A stretch of 64,000 bases of DNA, from positions 434,001-498,000 of the forward strand of contig NZ_FTMA01000001.1 of assembly GCF_900155985.1 (NCBI RefSeq). The letters are read 5' to 3'. A model generated the notes under the pieces. The model was not told the origin of the DNA, did not search any database, and saw only the letters and a program-made list of their open reading frames with translations. This stretch comes from Maribacter ulvicola. Its GTDB lineage: Bacteria; Bacteroidota; Bacteroidia; Flavobacteriales; Flavobacteriaceae. Positions 8,308 to 17,218 of the stretch are shown one piece after another (the stretch's first letter is position 1; every line of letters starts with the position of its first letter). The position numbers and the translations under genes are program-made.

Positions 8308-9264
8308 ATGAAAAAAGAAAGAACAAACGGATTATCGTGTGAAAGAGCCCGAGCTTTTCCCATCGAAAAAGCGCTGGCAAAACTAGGGCACTTTCCGACC
8401 AGAACGAACGAGAAAGAAGCTTGGTTCCTGAGCCCTATCCGCCCGGAAACCCAAGCCTCTTTCAAGGTGTCCAAGAAGCTCAATAGATGGTACGACCATG
8501 GAGAAGGAAAAGGAGGGAATGTTATCGGCCTTATCTGTTTGATTACAAAAGGTACGGTCAAGGAAGCATTAGAAATAATAGGACAGGATGAACTTTCTTT
8601 TTCTTTTCAAAAGCAACCATTTTTGGAAAAGCAGCGAGAGCATACAATCACAATCATGTACGCCAAACCTATTCAGCATCTGGGATTGATGAAGTATTTG
8701 CATGAACGTAACATTTCAATGGCAACAGCATCAAAGTATTGCTCGGAAGTCCATTATATGTTCAGGGGAAGGAAATACTTCGCCACTGGTCTTAAAAACG
8801 ATTCCGGTGGCTGGGAACTACGGAACAAATATTATAAAAATTCAAGTTCGCCCAAGGATATCACCCACATCAAAAACGGATACGATAAACTCATTATTAC
8901 CGAAGGCATGTTCGACCTGTTATCGATTTTAGAGTACCATAAAAACTTGGAATCGGATTATGATTTTCTGGTATTGAACTCAACGGCATTCGTTCAAAAG
9001 GTGATGCGAACATTAGAGGGTTATTCTAGCATCGAACTCTATTTGGACAACGATAGCAATGGAAAACGAACAACCGAAAAATTGATGGCGCACTCTAAAA
9101 GCTGTAAGGACAAATCGAAACATTATTCAGGATTCAAGGATATGAACGAATGGCTGAGAGGTAGTTCTATTAATGGAGTTGGGCAGAAGGCGCAAGATGT
9201 GTTTTTGTTGCCACAAAAACAAACTTGCTTTACTCCCGGCGGTCGCAAAGAAAAAAACAAATGA
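8308..9264 (+). CDS. DnaG-type primase (CHC2-like N-terminus plus TOPRIM)
   Basis: The 318-residue protein opens with a CHC2-like region (NEKEAWFLSPIRPETQASFKV, then WYDHGEGKGGNVIGLICLI), in which the zinc-binding cysteines are largely missing, and continues with a TOPRIM domain carrying the acidic motifs IITEGMFDLLS and LYLDNDSNGKR. This is the usual primase of Bacteroidota mobilizable elements; it makes RNA primers for the transferred or replicating strand. The iteron cluster lies just upstream. Its stop overlaps the MobC start (ATGA), so the two are translationally coupled. Confidence 0.87.
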   Translation: MKKERTNGLSCERARAFPIEKALAKLGHFPTRTNEKEAWFLSPIRPETQASFKVSKKLNRWYDHGEGKGGNVIGLICLITKGTVKEALEIIGQDELSFSFQKQPFLEKQREHTITIMYAKPIQHLGLMKYLHERNISMATASKYCSEVHYMFRGRKYFATGLKNDSGGWELRNKYYKNSSSPKDITHIKNGYDKLIITEGMFDLLSILEYHKNLESDYDFLVLNSTAFVQKVMRTLEGYSSIELYLDNDSNGKRTTEKLMAHSKSCKDKSKHYSGFKDMNEWLRGSSINGVGQKAQDVFLLPQKQTCFTPGGRKEKNK

Positions 9265-9566
9265 AAAAGACCTACATCAAATTCAGGTGTTCCATTTACG
9301 AGAAAAAGCTACTCAAGAAAAGAGCGGAGCGGGCCGGTATTTCCCTTTCGGAGTACTGCCGTAGTTCCGCCTTCGGAAATTCTGTAATCGAACGTTTAAC
9401 GGAAGAGCAGTTAACGCATTATAAAATACTGGTAAAGTACAAAGGGAATTTTACCCGTATCGGGAATATGTTCAAGAGACATAACCCGAAACTGGCCAGC
9501 GAGGTCGAGAATTTGGCGGAGGAAATCCGAACTCATCTCTATAATTTCAAGAGCATAAAAAAATGA
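9261..9566 (+). CDS. mobC: MobC-family relaxosome protein
   Basis: About 101 residues from the ATG at 9261, which overlaps the primase stop. It shows the ribbon-helix-helix style MobC pattern: YIKFRCSIYEKKLLKKRAE, then RAGISLSEYCRSSAF and a C-terminal helix. MobC proteins bind oriT and help the relaxase open the DNA. An upstream in-frame ATG at 9225 lies in the primase gene and is not needed. The stop overlaps the relaxase start, again by ATGA. Confidence 0.85.
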   Translation: MKKTYIKFRCSIYEKKLLKKRAERAGISLSEYCRSSAFGNSVIERLTEEQLTHYKILVKYKGNFTRIGNMFKRHNPKLASEVENLAEEIRTHLYNFKSIKK

Positions 9567-10432
9567 TAGGCAAGGGAAAGGCAGTCGGGAACACCAGAGC
9601 CAACATCGATTACGGTCTGGACAAGGAGAAGGATGCCGAAATTGTCTTTAGCCAACATCTTGCGGGAGATAATGCCCAACAGATAACAGAGGAGTTCAGG
9701 CTGATACAGGAACAGAATACAAGATGCCAAAAGAACAGCCTGAGCTTTATTCTAAGCCCTACCCGAGAAGACGGTAAAAACCTTACCAAAGAACGGTTAG
9801 GGGAACTGACCCAAAAGTTTGTAAAAGAAATGGGATTGAAGGAAAATCAGGCAGTGGCCTTCGTTCATCGCGATAAGGCACATACCCATGTCCATCTTTA
9901 CGTGAACCGAATCGGTTTCGACGGCAAGGCCTACAATGACAGTTTTATAGGTAAACGGAGCCAATTGGCCGCCGAGAACGTAGCCTATGATATGGGGCTT
10001 ACTACCGTCAAGGAAGTGCAACTAGAAAAGGAGATGGATACGATAAGAATACGTCTTGAAATCAAGCATATTCATCAGAAAATTATGGTGAACGAAAGGC
10101 CAAAAACCTTGGATGTTTATATCAAGACGATGAAGGCACAGAAGGTGGAAGTCATACCATGTATCAACAAGGCGAACAAGTTACAAGGGTTTCGATTCGA
10201 ATACAAAGGACAGAATTTCAAGGCGAGCGAAGTACACCGTTCCATGTCCGGAGGAAGGATTATGGCGCAGCTTTCACAAAATAGGGGCATTGCAAAACCA
10301 TTGGAGGTAGGAAAGTCAGCTCAGCTGTTGGGGAAGACTTTGGAACTGAGTACCAATCTGGCTACCAGTATCGCCAAGAACATCATCAAAAAAACAATCA
10401 GAAAAGCCATCGAAACGGGAATCGGGTTCTAA
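9563..10432 (+). CDS. mobA: Relaxase/mobilization nuclease (MobP type)
   Basis: This 289-residue protein starts MIGKGKAVGNTRANIDYGL, a relaxase N-terminus whose candidate catalytic Tyr is at residue 17, and carries the metal-binding triad motif HRDKAHTHVHLYVNR at about 105-119. It nicks oriT and stays bound to the transferred strand. It lies at the end of a coupled primase-mobC-mobA chain. The protein is short, with no helicase or primase domain fused, consistent with an element that supplies these separately and borrows a conjugation channel from another plasmid or ICE. Confidence 0.9.
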   Translation: MIGKGKAVGNTRANIDYGLDKEKDAEIVFSQHLAGDNAQQITEEFRLIQEQNTRCQKNSLSFILSPTREDGKNLTKERLGELTQKFVKEMGLKENQAVAFVHRDKAHTHVHLYVNRIGFDGKAYNDSFIGKRSQLAAENVAYDMGLTTVKEVQLEKEMDTIRIRLEIKHIHQKIMVNERPKTLDVYIKTMKAQKVEVIPCINKANKLQGFRFEYKGQNFKASEVHRSMSGGRIMAQLSQNRGIAKPLEVGKSAQLLGKTLELSTNLATSIAKNIIKKTIRKAIETGIGF

Positions 10433-10443
10433 AATAAAAAGCT

Positions 10444-10917
10444 ATGGGATATAAAAAACTGGACGAGGTAATGGAACTGCTCACCGACGAACTGGACGGT
10501 TTCAATACATCAATAAACAGATTGGAACGGTTAGCTCAAAATGTCGAAAACATCAAAATACAACCCGATACTTCTGAAATCGAGAGAATGCTCCTTGAGC
10601 ACTTAGAATTAGAGAAACAGAATAATTTGAAACTCGAAGAATCTGTTTATCATATAAAGAAACGGATTGCAAAAGCAAGACTGGTTCCAAAAGTTCAGCT
10701 ATGGCTGCATTATTCGATTTGGTTGGTTACATTTATCATCATCGGCTATCTAGCTTTTAAGGTATCTCAAACACCTGATATTCGGGAACGGGCATTCGCT
10801 GAAGGTGAGCGGCAAGCAGTCTTAAATCTCAAAGCATATTTTGAAAACAATCCCGAGCAGTTTCAAGCCTATAAAAAATGGATTAAAGAAAAAGATAGTG
10901 TTCCAAATCAAAAGTAG
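10444..10917 (+). CDS. Coiled-coil single-span membrane protein of the mobilization operon
   Basis: The 157-residue protein has a helical coiled-coil N-terminal part (1-85, rich in Leu/Glu), a single membrane helix at about 95-115 (WLHYSIWLVTFIIIGYLAF) and a charged C-terminal tail ending in KEKDS. It starts 11 bp after the relaxase. Similar small membrane proteins follow relaxases in Bacteroidota elements (I recall the label DUF6730, not verified). A role in docking the relaxosome to the membrane is plausible but unproven. Confidence 0.75.
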   Translation: MGYKKLDEVMELLTDELDGFNTSINRLERLAQNVENIKIQPDTSEIERMLLEHLELEKQNNLKLEESVYHIKKRIAKARLVPKVQLWLHYSIWLVTFIIIGYLAFKVSQTPDIRERAFAEGERQAVLNLKAYFENNPEQFQAYKKWIKEKDSVPNQK

Positions 10918-14878: not shown

Positions 14879-15661
14879 ATGAATAATTTGCTACTTAGTA
14901 TTTCGATACCCTTTGAGCCTATTGTATTTGGTGTAAAATTAAACATGCATCTTATTCTAGAATACCTGGCGTTTTTTATTGGATTTCGATATTATGTTTT
15001 TCTTCGGAAAAGAAGTACTGATGCTATTTCTTCTAACAACCGACTTTCTATTTTAATTGGTGCTGTTTTTGGTGCCTTGTTCCTTTCTAGGTTAGTTGCA
15101 TTTTTTGAGAACCCTGTGACGCATATTCAAGAAGATTGGCTATACAACTTGAACAATAAAACCATAATGGGCGGACTCTTTGGTGGTTTGCTGGGTGTGG
15201 AATTTGCCAAGAAAATTATTGGTGAAAAGCAATCATCCGGAGATCTGTTTACATTACCTATTATCTTAGGTATAATCATTGGCAGGGTTGGTTGCTTTTT
15301 AGCAGGTATTAAAGAGTTTACCTTTGGAAAAGAAACTACCTTTTTTACAGGAATAGATTTAGGTGATGGTCTTCTTAGACACCCTATTGCATTGTATGAA
15401 GTGGTATTTTTAATTTTCCTATTTATTATTATCCAAAGACTTCAAAAATCAAAGATTAAGCATAGAAACGGAGACCTTTTTAAGCTGTTTATGGTTGTCT
15501 ATTTTACATTAAGATTTTGTATCGAATTTATAAAACCGAACCCTTTTTATTTCTTAGGTTTAAGTAGTATTCAAATATTATGTTTAATTTGTTTGGTTTA
15601 CTACCATAAATTTATCCTACGGGGAATATCCTATGTCAGAAAAAAATTATACATATTATGA
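14879..15661 (+). CDS. Divergent prolipoprotein diacylglyceryl transferase (Lgt) homologue
   Basis: This 260-residue polytopic membrane protein (about seven helices) aligns with Lgt by GRVGCFLAG (136-143), RHPIALYE (167-174) and LRFCIEF (211-217). Two residues essential in E. coli Lgt appear replaced: His103 in the SFHGG block corresponds to Met97 here (TIMGGLFGG), and Asn146 in GRxGN corresponds to Cys139. Arg136 is kept. The gene overlaps the radical SAM gene by 29 bp, so the two products are tightly linked. It may therefore be a lipid-handling paralogue rather than the housekeeping Lgt. The replacements are judged by eye, without an alignment program. Confidence 0.85.
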   Translation: MNNLLLSISIPFEPIVFGVKLNMHLILEYLAFFIGFRYYVFLRKRSTDAISSNNRLSILIGAVFGALFLSRLVAFFENPVTHIQEDWLYNLNNKTIMGGLFGGLLGVEFAKKIIGEKQSSGDLFTLPIILGIIIGRVGCFLAGIKEFTFGKETTFFTGIDLGDGLLRHPIALYEVVFLIFLFIIIQRLQKSKIKHRNGDLFKLFMVVYFTLRFCIEFIKPNPFYFLGLSSIQILCLICLVYYHKFILRGISYVRKKLYIL

Positions 15662-17027
15662 TTTCACTTTAAGCCTTTGCCCAGAATGTTTACGACGGGT
15701 AGATGCCAAAATTGTCTTTGAGAACGAAAAGGTATACATGCTTAAAAATTGTAAAGAGCATGGTAGATCTAAAGTGCTTATTGCTGATGATATTGAATAT
15801 TATAAGAACATAAGAAACTACAACAAGGCTTCTGAATACCCTAAAACATTCAATACAAAAACGCATTATGGCTGCCCATATGATTGCGGATTGTGCCCAG
15901 ATCATGAGCAACATTCTTGCCTTACCGTTATTGAACTCACGGACCGTTGTAACCTTACCTGCCCTACTTGTTACGCGGGATCATCGCCCACGTATGGCAG
16001 ACATAGAACCCTTGAGGAAATCAAGAAAATGCTTGATGTTATTGTAAATAACGAAGGTGAACCAGATGTGGTACAATTAAGTGGTGGTGAGCCTACCATA
16101 CACCCTAATTTCTTTGAGATTTTAGACTATGCAAAATCGCTTCCCATTCGTCATTTAATGTTGAATACCAACGGAATTAAAATTGCGAAAGATTTTGAGT
16201 TTGCTAAGCGATTAGCCACCTATGCACCAGATTTTGAAGTGTATTTACAGTTTGATTCGTTAGATGACCAAGTACTGCAAACCCTTCGCGGAGCAGACCT
16301 AGCCCAGATTCGTTTACAAGCTTTAGACCACCTAAATAAATTAAACCTTTCTACAACGTTGGTAGTCACTTTACAAAAAGGACTGAACGACCATGAAATG
16401 GGAAGCACCATAGACTTTGCCTTAAAACAAAAATGTGTACGCGGGGTTACTTTTCAACCCACACAGATAGCAGGGAGATTAGAGAATTTTGAGGTGGACG
16501 AAAACCGAATTACCTTAACCGAAGTACGACGAAAAATATTAGAGCAGTCGCCTATTTTTGAATCGGACGATTTAATTCCCGTTCCCTGTAATCCTGATGC
16601 TTTAGTAATGGCCTATGCCTTAAAATTAGGTAATGAGGTAAACCCGTTAACCAGGTTCATAAACCCAGATGATTTATTGAACGAAGGTAAAAACACGATA
16701 ATCTATGAGCAAGATGAGCAGTTGCACGGTAAAATGATTGAGCTCTTCAGCACGGGAAATTCCGTTGAAAAAGCTTCGGAAAACCTAAAGAGTATTATGT
16801 GTTGCCTGCCAGAAATTGATGCTCCAGAGCTGGGGTATGATAACTTATTCCGTATTATAATTATGCAATTTATTGATGCCCATAATTTTGATGTACGTGC
16901 CATAAAAAAATCTTGTGTGCACATTGTAAACAAAGACTATAAAATTATCCCGTTTGAAACTATGAACCTGTTTTATAGAGATGATAAAATTGAAAGATTA
17001 AAAGAACTACAAAACGAAATGATATGA
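15633..17027 (+). CDS. Radical SAM enzyme of the Tes/MJ0619 type
   Basis: The 464-residue protein has an N-terminal zinc-like motif (C16, C19, C40, H43), a second cysteine set GCPYDCGLCPDHEQHSC (C81, C85, C88, C96), the radical SAM motif CNLTCPTC (C106, C110, C113), SGGEP, and a C-terminal signature QFIDAHNFDVRAIKKSCVHI then IIPF. This layout is that of the archaeal MJ0619 methylase and tetraether lipid synthase (Tes) family, which act on unactivated carbons, including lipid tails. It overlaps the Lgt-like gene by 29 bp and the next small membrane gene by 4 bp. A lipid or lipoprotein acyl-chain substrate is inference from that context. Confidence 0.85.
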   Translation: MSEKNYTYYDFTLSLCPECLRRVDAKIVFENEKVYMLKNCKEHGRSKVLIADDIEYYKNIRNYNKASEYPKTFNTKTHYGCPYDCGLCPDHEQHSCLTVIELTDRCNLTCPTCYAGSSPTYGRHRTLEEIKKMLDVIVNNEGEPDVVQLSGGEPTIHPNFFEILDYAKSLPIRHLMLNTNGIKIAKDFEFAKRLATYAPDFEVYLQFDSLDDQVLQTLRGADLAQIRLQALDHLNKLNLSTTLVVTLQKGLNDHEMGSTIDFALKQKCVRGVTFQPTQIAGRLENFEVDENRITLTEVRRKILEQSPIFESDDLIPVPCNPDALVMAYALKLGNEVNPLTRFINPDDLLNEGKNTIIYEQDEQLHGKMIELFSTGNSVEKASENLKSIMCCLPEIDAPELGYDNLFRIIIMQFIDAHNFDVRAIKKSCVHIVNKDYKIIPFETMNLFYRDDKIERLKELQNEMI

Positions 17028-17218
17028 TTTTAGAAGGTAATTTAGATGGTCTAGCTACCTTTCTGATTATGATAATGTTTGGCCCTGCAATCTTGTTCCT
17101 TATTATTGGTGCCATCCTATTTAATTATAAGAAGAAAAAAGCGGGTAAAGTATTTATGATTTTAGCCGGAGTGTATTGTTTAATAAGCCTTGGTTTATGC
17201 GGTACTATGATGGCATAG
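17024..17218 (+). CDS. Small two-helix membrane protein of the radical SAM operon
   Basis: This 64-residue protein has two membrane helices (about 10-32, FLIMIMFGPAILFLIIGAIL, and 41-62, KVFMILAGVYCLISLGLCG) joined by a basic loop NYKKKKAGK. Its ATG overlaps the radical SAM stop (ATGA), indicating coupled translation. I do not recognise a family. It ends 4 bp before the convergent TonB-family gene. Location suggests a membrane anchor or partner for the two enzymes upstream. Confidence 0.75.
   Translation: MILEGNLDGLATFLIMIMFGPAILFLIIGAILFNYKKKKAGKVFMILAGVYCLISLGLCGTMMA

Follow-up and report, generated by a model that had tools for sequence, protein, structure and literature searches.

The window examined here, a stretch of 64,000 nucleotides from the flavobacterium Maribacter ulvicola (contig NZ_FTMA01000001.1, positions 434,001 to 498,000), contains three genes on the plus strand that encode an Lgt-like integral membrane protein, a Tes-like radical SAM protein, and a small two-helix protein, termed the hairpin protein (Table 1). 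The Lgt-like gene overlaps the radical SAM gene by 29 bp, and the radical SAM gene overlaps the hairpin gene by 4 bp. A first-pass annotation had described these open reading frames (ORFs), and an ORF check confirms their coordinates and overlaps. The trio is a conserved gene cassette in two bacterial phyla. The linkage of its three genes is well supported, and the chemistry proposed for their products is inferred. Among the 80 relatives kept of 168, the nearest named records are Maribacter, with a radical SAM identity of at most 98%. No description of the cassette was found in the open-access literature searched (listed titles and abstract beginnings).

Table 1. Features of the cassette in the window and related genes elsewhere. 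Residue counts are alignment rows (20 Lgt-like; 22 radical SAM, 19 of these Lgt-linked). L numbers denote loci and G numbers genomes.
Feature	Position	Strand	Basis or conservation
Lgt-like integral membrane protein, 260 aa	14879..15661	+	ORF; Pfam LGT match; second Lgt paralogue of the genome
Codon Arg136 (= E. coli Lgt Arg143, essential)	15284..15286	+	R in 20/20 Lgt-like rows
Codon Cys139 (place of canonical Lgt Asn146)	15293..15295	+	C in 20/20; N in the genome's other Lgt
Codon Arg212 (= E. coli Lgt Arg239, essential)	15512..15514	+	R in 20/20 Lgt-like rows
Tes-like radical SAM protein, 464 aa	15633..17027	+	ORF; GDGT-MAS 7tol match
N-terminal rubredoxin-type CxxC...CxxH site (C16, C19, C40, H43)	15678..15761	+	C16/C19/C40 in 22/22 rows, H43 in 21/22
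N-terminal auxiliary cluster motif C81, C85, C88 with H91/H94 and C96	15873..15920	+	C81/C85/C88 in 15/19 Lgt-linked rows
Radical SAM motif C106-x3-C110-x2-C113	15948..15971	+	22/22 rows
Hairpin protein, 64 aa	17024..17218	+	ORF; two hydrophobic stretches (predicted membrane helices), basic loop residues 36-42
Codon Cys59 in LGLCG, proposed lipid acceptor	17198..17200	+	Cys in this column in 123/127 distinct ORFs
True Tes by NCBIfam cut-off (493.8 bits)	L125 6864-8321 (G066)		Genome without Lgt-like gene
Tes/TrsS-like radical SAM with methyltransferase directly behind	L131 7971-10339; L133 8001-10164; L168 3926-6204; L169 3974-6084; L170 3974-6177		

The two enzymes of the cassette occur together. 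Across a sample of 296 genomes of the window's phylum, a radical SAM match (E ≤ 1e-30) is found in 26 and an Lgt-like match (E ≤ 1e-15) in 26, with both in 25, each alone in one, and neither in 269 (Fisher p 5e-34, the genomes being treated as independent though they are related). Within the genus g2, six genomes have both enzymes and 11 listed genomes have neither (more match-free genomes are unlisted). Both are present in G034 and G272 even though they lie on different contigs. The sole genome with the radical SAM match only, G066, encodes a true Tes and has a single LGT match. The view of the first-pass annotation that the genes form one functional unit agrees with the 25 genomes that hold both enzymes and with the hairpins that adjoin them.

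A scan of genome contigs yielded 168 radical SAM relatives, of which the 80 kept are nearly all flavobacteria by record title. In all 80 loci, the radical SAM gene stands beside a same-strand Lgt-like match and at least one hairpin ORF, with one, two, or three hairpin copies in 50, 27, and 3 loci, respectively. In 66 of these loci the Lgt-like gene overlaps the radical SAM gene or lies within 20 bp of it, and in four the distance exceeds 400 bp; at L075 the match is fragmented into a 155-aa ORF and two short ones. These loci share a larger gene block (Dus in 75, FtsX-like in 69, and LepA in 63) and so represent few independent events. In 20 distant loci, none of six window neighbors (RbfA, FtsX-like, Dus, two outer-membrane receptors, and LepA) is found at 1e-20, and in 18 of the 20 the Lgt-like gene shares the strand of the radical SAM gene at a distance of no more than about 1.1 kb; at L113 and L122 the two genes are on different contigs. 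Hairpins are present in 18 of the distant loci, 13 by criterion and five (L121, L122, L126, L135, and L136) accepted by eye after being missed by the criterion. As for the other two, no hairpin is visible at L113, and the contig of L112 ends at the radical SAM gene. Other genes common to the distant loci are confined, at the limits used, to four loci of one genus, bar one family that by eye resembles a short-chain dehydrogenase. No fourth constant partner was seen, the frequent neighbors of the 80 loci being the common block that is absent from the distant loci.

The hairpin criterion was written after examples had been seen, and its independent test consists of seven newly drawn genomes only. 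With the criterion fixed beforehand, a hairpin is found in six of these, and the DNA of the seventh broke off within the Lgt-like gene. Against a background of 3777 ORFs, many of them non-genes, the criterion selects one. Linkage of the cassette genes is old and repeated. The lack of a conserved neighborhood, which the first-pass annotation had named as grounds for giving up its proposal, is not what is seen, as the linkage recurs in unrelated neighborhoods. Chance clustering is likewise spoken against by the co-occurrence and the unrelated flanks.

Beyond the window's phylum, a plasmid collection was sampled (tblastn), and 10 of its records match the radical SAM protein. Mycobacterium branderi carries the cassette in the order Lgt-like, hairpin, hairpin, radical SAM, and an M. 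avium record has the same order, while a Nonomuraea record reads hairpin, Lgt-like, radical SAM. The radical SAM proteins of these three actinobacterial cassettes are about 30% identical to that of the window. A plasmid record of Persicobacter, a member of the Bacteroidota, holds the cassette in the usual order. In records of M. vanbaalenii and four haloarchaea, the radical SAM gene is followed by a methyltransferase gene (Table 1), and the annotated stretch shown contains no Lgt gene; the tenth record, Halalkalicoccus, is a match only. The cassette is not confined to flavobacteria, so that the flavobacterial setting envisaged at first is correct as far as it goes and too narrow. Within the window's phylum, the actinobacterial type of radical SAM protein is found at E ≤ 1e-70 in one of 395 genomes, the already known G096. 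As a separate observation, the actinobacterial cassettes L132 and L136 encode radical SAM proteins without the N-terminal auxiliary cluster cysteines and hairpins with a common CTGLNP tail. The methyltransferase-linked loci (L131, L133, and L168 to L170), which are on Mycolicibacterium and haloarchaeal plasmids, lie mostly in neighborhoods of redox and thiol proteins.

The hairpin protein was recognized from the start as a small two-helix membrane protein, and its two hydrophobic stretches agree with this, but its conserved cysteine, and hence its likely role as acceptor or substrate, had been missed. The window protein has cysteines at positions 52 and 59. In a set of 127 distinct ORFs found by similarity (phmmer E < 0.01), the column of Cys59 is nearly invariant (Table 1), with a glycine two residues ahead in 121 of the 123 Cys-bearing ORFs to give a G-x-C motif. 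The residue directly before the cysteine is I in 72 of these and V in 26, and the tail behind it is 3 to 13 residues long in 122 and 35 in one. The four ORFs that lack the column cysteine are two upstream paralogues, an additional copy whose neighbor is intact, and one truncated where its locus ends. Near the cassette, 144 of 152 two-helix ORFs have a cysteine in their last 20 residues. The hairpin cysteine is near the C-terminus, at what is predicted to be the outer end of helix 2, and its conservation makes the hairpin a likely acceptor. Hairpins of distant lineages have diverged so far that similarity search misses most of them; what persists is a helix, a basic stretch, a second helix, mostly G/S-x-C, and a short tail. 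The window hairpin and eight others match no Pfam or NCBIfam family above cut-off. A canonical lipoprotein reading was rejected, because the lipobox consensus [LVI][ASTVI][GAS]C (PMC4728403) fits none of the 123 similarity-found hairpins that have the cysteine.

That the first gene encodes an Lgt homologue, as originally annotated, is upheld by its match to Pfam LGT PF01790 (2e-21, 76.9 bits, cut-off 24.9). Against the NCBIfam lgt equivalog it scores 44.4 bits, below the cut-off of 118.9, as do other family members (M. branderi L132, 89.7 bits; L123, 80.5 bits). A family profile gives E 3.2e-24 against E. coli Lgt (5azb). An AlphaFold2 model from 52 sequences is of fair quality, with a mean predicted local distance difference test (pLDDT) score of 78.6, and 5azb is its sole Foldseek match in the PDB below E 0.001 (5.3e-4, template modeling score 0.55). 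All 20 rows retain the equivalents of Lgt R143, E202, Y235, and R239; that of E243 is E or D, and that of R246 is K or R. In E. coli Lgt, Arg143 and Arg239 are essential (PMC4728403). Residues kept here are used by Lgt to transfer a diacylglyceryl group from phosphatidylglycerol. H103 of the HGGL motif is replaced by M, V, L, A, or T in 20 of 20 rows. At this column the genome's other Lgt is misaligned, showing S although its own sequence includes SHGA. Each of the 26 genomes with the Lgt-like gene has one or more further LGT matches, and the paralogue would therefore be free to specialize. The Lgt-like protein looks like a specialized extra copy in which donor-handling residues are kept and the acceptor side is changed. 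Two Lgt-like proteins elsewhere (L123 9406-10233 and L124 5858-6625) have a GRxGCFxxGCCYG stretch beside the Arg143 position, with two cysteines more than the window protein has there.

The radical SAM protein matches the Pfam Radical_SAM and HMPTM zinc ribbon families above cut-off. Its closest solved relative by sequence is GDGT-MAS (7tol; 4.6e-70 as a single sequence), the product of MJ0619 (PMC9433317), and the family profile matches 7tol over nearly its full length (6.1e-130). NCBIfam peptide maturases match weakly and in the radical SAM core only. Three motifs of Tes and GDGT-MAS are present in the window protein, namely the rubredoxin-type site, the N-terminal cluster C-x3-C-x2-C with histidines, and CX3CX2C. 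The first of these corresponds to ligands of GDGT-MAS (PMC9433317); L120 has Cys in place of its His43. The cluster cysteines are missing in four Lgt-linked rows, all of the actinobacterial type. Met411 of the window protein corresponds to Met439, a residue retained by 13 of the 19 Lgt-linked rows, and the true Tes L125 has Asp there.

Classification by scored models places the protein outside the named families. Against Tes (NF045702, cut-off 450 bits) the window protein reaches 295.6 bits, and other Lgt-linked members reach 276.3 (L120), 300.1 (L122), 305.7 (L123), 281.8 (L124), 148.9 (L126), and 285.2 (L134), while L132 is not among the Tes-model matches at E ≤ 1e-40. TrsS (NF045646, cut-off 490 bits) is the highest-scoring named model, with 333.8 bits for the window protein and 188.8 to 368.5 bits across the Lgt-linked members tested; the plasmid relatives L131 and L133 (335.5 and 352.5 bits), which have a methyltransferase gene next to them as do L168 to L170, are also below its cut-off. 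Membership in Tes or TrsS was rejected, since neither cut-off is reached in any of the eight Lgt-linked members tested. The initial assignment to the Tes/MJ0619 type stands as regards the match to GDGT-MAS and falls short as regards Tes itself. Closer kinship to an unrelated group, which the first-pass annotation had also held to be damaging, is judged not to apply, although TrsS is the best-scoring named model. The true Tes of the phylum (G066) is in a genome without the Lgt-like gene, whereas genes of the window family occur with an Lgt paralogue and hairpins. A tree of 23 proteins, with long branches and few outside rows, places 17 Lgt-linked proteins on one side and five methyltransferase-linked proteins plus one Tes on the other (support 88/87), a split recovered in 92% of 200 bootstrap trees. 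With moderate confidence, the Lgt-linked proteins appear to group apart from the few relatives compared. The L126 protein was taken with two different start sites, one in the tree and one in another analysis.

Lipid or lipoprotein chemistry, the field to which the first-pass annotation pointed, is still the likely one. The three proteins may constitute one pathway that places a modified lipid on small membrane hairpins, a tentative reading of the sequences to which we give somewhat less than an even chance. Because of its basic loop, the hairpin would insert with both ends outside, which would put the G-x-C cysteine on the outside of the inner membrane, the side on which Lgt enzymes act. In lipoprotein signal peptides, Lgt acts on a cysteine at the outer end of a hydrophobic stretch behind basic residues. 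Since helix 2 of the hairpin has that design and its neighbor is an Lgt with a changed acceptor site, enzyme and substrate would be the simplest reading of the pair. The Lgt-like enzyme would transfer a glycerolipid to the G-x-C cysteine. The hairpin would probably escape cleavage by signal peptidase II, because the bulky residue before the cysteine (usually I or V) is unfit for the [GAS] position of the lipobox, and the product would stay a lipidated two-helix protein. The Tes-like enzyme, acting from the cytoplasmic side, would use 5'-deoxyadenosyl radicals to functionalize or join the ends of acyl chains, either before transfer, on the lipid, or after it, on the lipidated hairpin.

Published work offers a possible basis for the chain chemistry. 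The GDGT-MAS fold accommodates two lipids and removes hydrogen from the ends of chains, and bacterial phospholipids occupied the active site of the enzyme when it was produced in E. coli (PMC9433317). Maribacter algarum has mainly iso-branched fatty acids, with iso-C15:0, iso-C15:1 G, and iso-C17:0 3-OH as the major ones (PMC12313589), and iso chain ends resemble those of archaeal chains (PMC8941075). Because of the Tes-like lipid-enzyme fold and this likeness of the iso ends, modified acyl chains may be on the hairpin cysteine or destined for it. A bolder version, which we consider decidedly improbable, is a protein-bound membrane-spanning lipid, in which the Lgt-like enzyme would load the outer-leaflet cysteine with a glycerolipid and the Tes-like enzyme would join the chain ends of this lipid to an inner-leaflet phospholipid, so that the hairpin would be stapled through the bilayer. 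If this is true, protein lipidation would gain a new class, and ordinary marine bacteria would have a source of tail-joined lipids.

Several observations weigh against a hairpin-lipidating pathway. Exchange of H103 in E. coli Lgt abolished complementation, and H103 is proposed to bind the lipobox peptide (PMC4728403); with this residue lost, the Lgt-like protein may not be an active transferase. Among named relatives of the radical SAM protein, TrsS scores best, ahead of Tes, and TrsS is a list entry only in the text found. The C-terminal part of Tes is changed in the Lgt-linked proteins, as judged from the alignment: the Tyr459 position is I or V in 19 of 19 rows, and a late C-terminal cysteine is E, D, or S in 15 of 19. 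Met439 and Tyr459 are conserved in 1000 archaeal homologues, and Y459 and M439 variants are still active (PMC9433317). The AlphaFold2 model of the radical SAM protein is poor (mean pLDDT 58), with low confidence in its C-terminal part; it still finds 7tom/7tol first in a structure search. Cysteines in the last 20 residues also occur elsewhere in these loci, in 14 of 37 two-helix ORFs that have a C-terminal helix. Genome G017, which alone has the Lgt-like gene without the radical SAM gene, yields no radical SAM match even at 1e-5, and no hairpin adjoins its Lgt-like gene, an orphan at L129 6653-7498; G034 has both enzymes with no hairpin found beside either.

The radical SAM protein could instead be a peptide maturase that acts on the hairpin, for example on the G-x-C tail or neighboring side chains, with the Lgt-like protein serving only as an anchoring enzyme and the hairpins as membrane-bound precursors of ribosomally synthesized and post-translationally modified peptides (RiPPs). 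Multiple precursor copies are common in RiPP clusters, and the one to three hairpins per locus are in keeping with this; RiPP-lipoprotein hybrids also have precedent in Bacteroidota (PMC12636315). This explanation is nevertheless unlikely, as the match of the radical SAM protein to a lipid enzyme spans nearly the full length, while that to peptide maturases is weak and confined to the core, and the hairpins have little sequence in common across lineages beyond two helices, a basic stretch, and G/S-x-C. A free lipid as the product, membrane-spanning or otherwise modified, is improbable too. The Lgt-like protein would then pass a glycerolipid to some small molecule or to a second lipid, with the hairpin as an assembly or docking subunit. 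Tes does make free lipids (PMC9433317), and bacterial Tes homologues are proposed for branched glycerol dialkyl glycerol tetraethers (PMC8941075). A docking subunit, however, has no obvious need for a cysteine that persists amid sequence change, and among the twelve gene families most shared in the surroundings of the 80 loci, to which the search by eye was limited, none was recognized as an ether-lipid gene.

A redox role for the hairpin cysteine, as a thiol or persulfide partner of Cys139 in the Lgt-like protein or of the iron-sulfur enzyme with no lipid attached, is quite improbable. It would account for the replacement of Asn146 by Cys139 in every Lgt-like row, but Cys139 is also found in the Lgt-like proteins of G017 (L129) and G034 (L127), where no hairpin was found beside them, and the G-x-C cysteine ends a hydrophobic stretch as a lipobox cysteine does. 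That the three genes are unrelated neighbors held together by general conservation of gene order is extremely unlikely. The common block around the 80 Flavobacteriaceae-type loci, which are not independent, is what such an account would predict; the distant loci lack all six window neighbors and in 18 cases keep both enzymes close together, and the two enzymes co-occur even on different contigs.

Among known systems, Lgt shares with the Lgt-like protein its fold and the kept residues, and differs in its H103 and N146, in the score against the lgt model, and in not being an extra copy beside another Lgt. GDGT-MAS and Tes are alike in the near-full-length profile match and the N-terminal and radical SAM motifs, and unlike in the C-terminal changes and the scores. 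The DAG-RiPPs combine lipoprotein chemistry with a small peptide modified by a metalloenzyme, in Bacteroidota among others; MNIO enzymes are employed there, together with the signal peptides and the general pathway of lipoproteins (PMC12636315). The cassette differs from them in its dedicated Lgt paralogue, its Tes-like enzyme, and a non-lipobox cysteine near the C-terminus.

Surveys count bacterial Tes homologues, whose role in bacterial lipids is, according to these sources, experimentally unconfirmed (PMC8941075, PMC11868695). The link to a second Lgt and to cysteine-bearing hairpins offers a concrete, testable substrate for one Tes-like group, and the cassette suggests that culturable marine bacteria lipidate proteins by a route other than the standard lipobox one. 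If the hairpin is indeed lipidated by this pathway, caution would be due in taking each metagenomic Tes-like gene as a marker of tetraether lipids.

Elsewhere in the window, at 8308-10917, primase-, MobC-like, and relaxase-like ORFs recognized by eye stand in a row. They may be the mobilization module of an integrated element and lie just upstream of a methylmalonyl-CoA epimerase-like gene.

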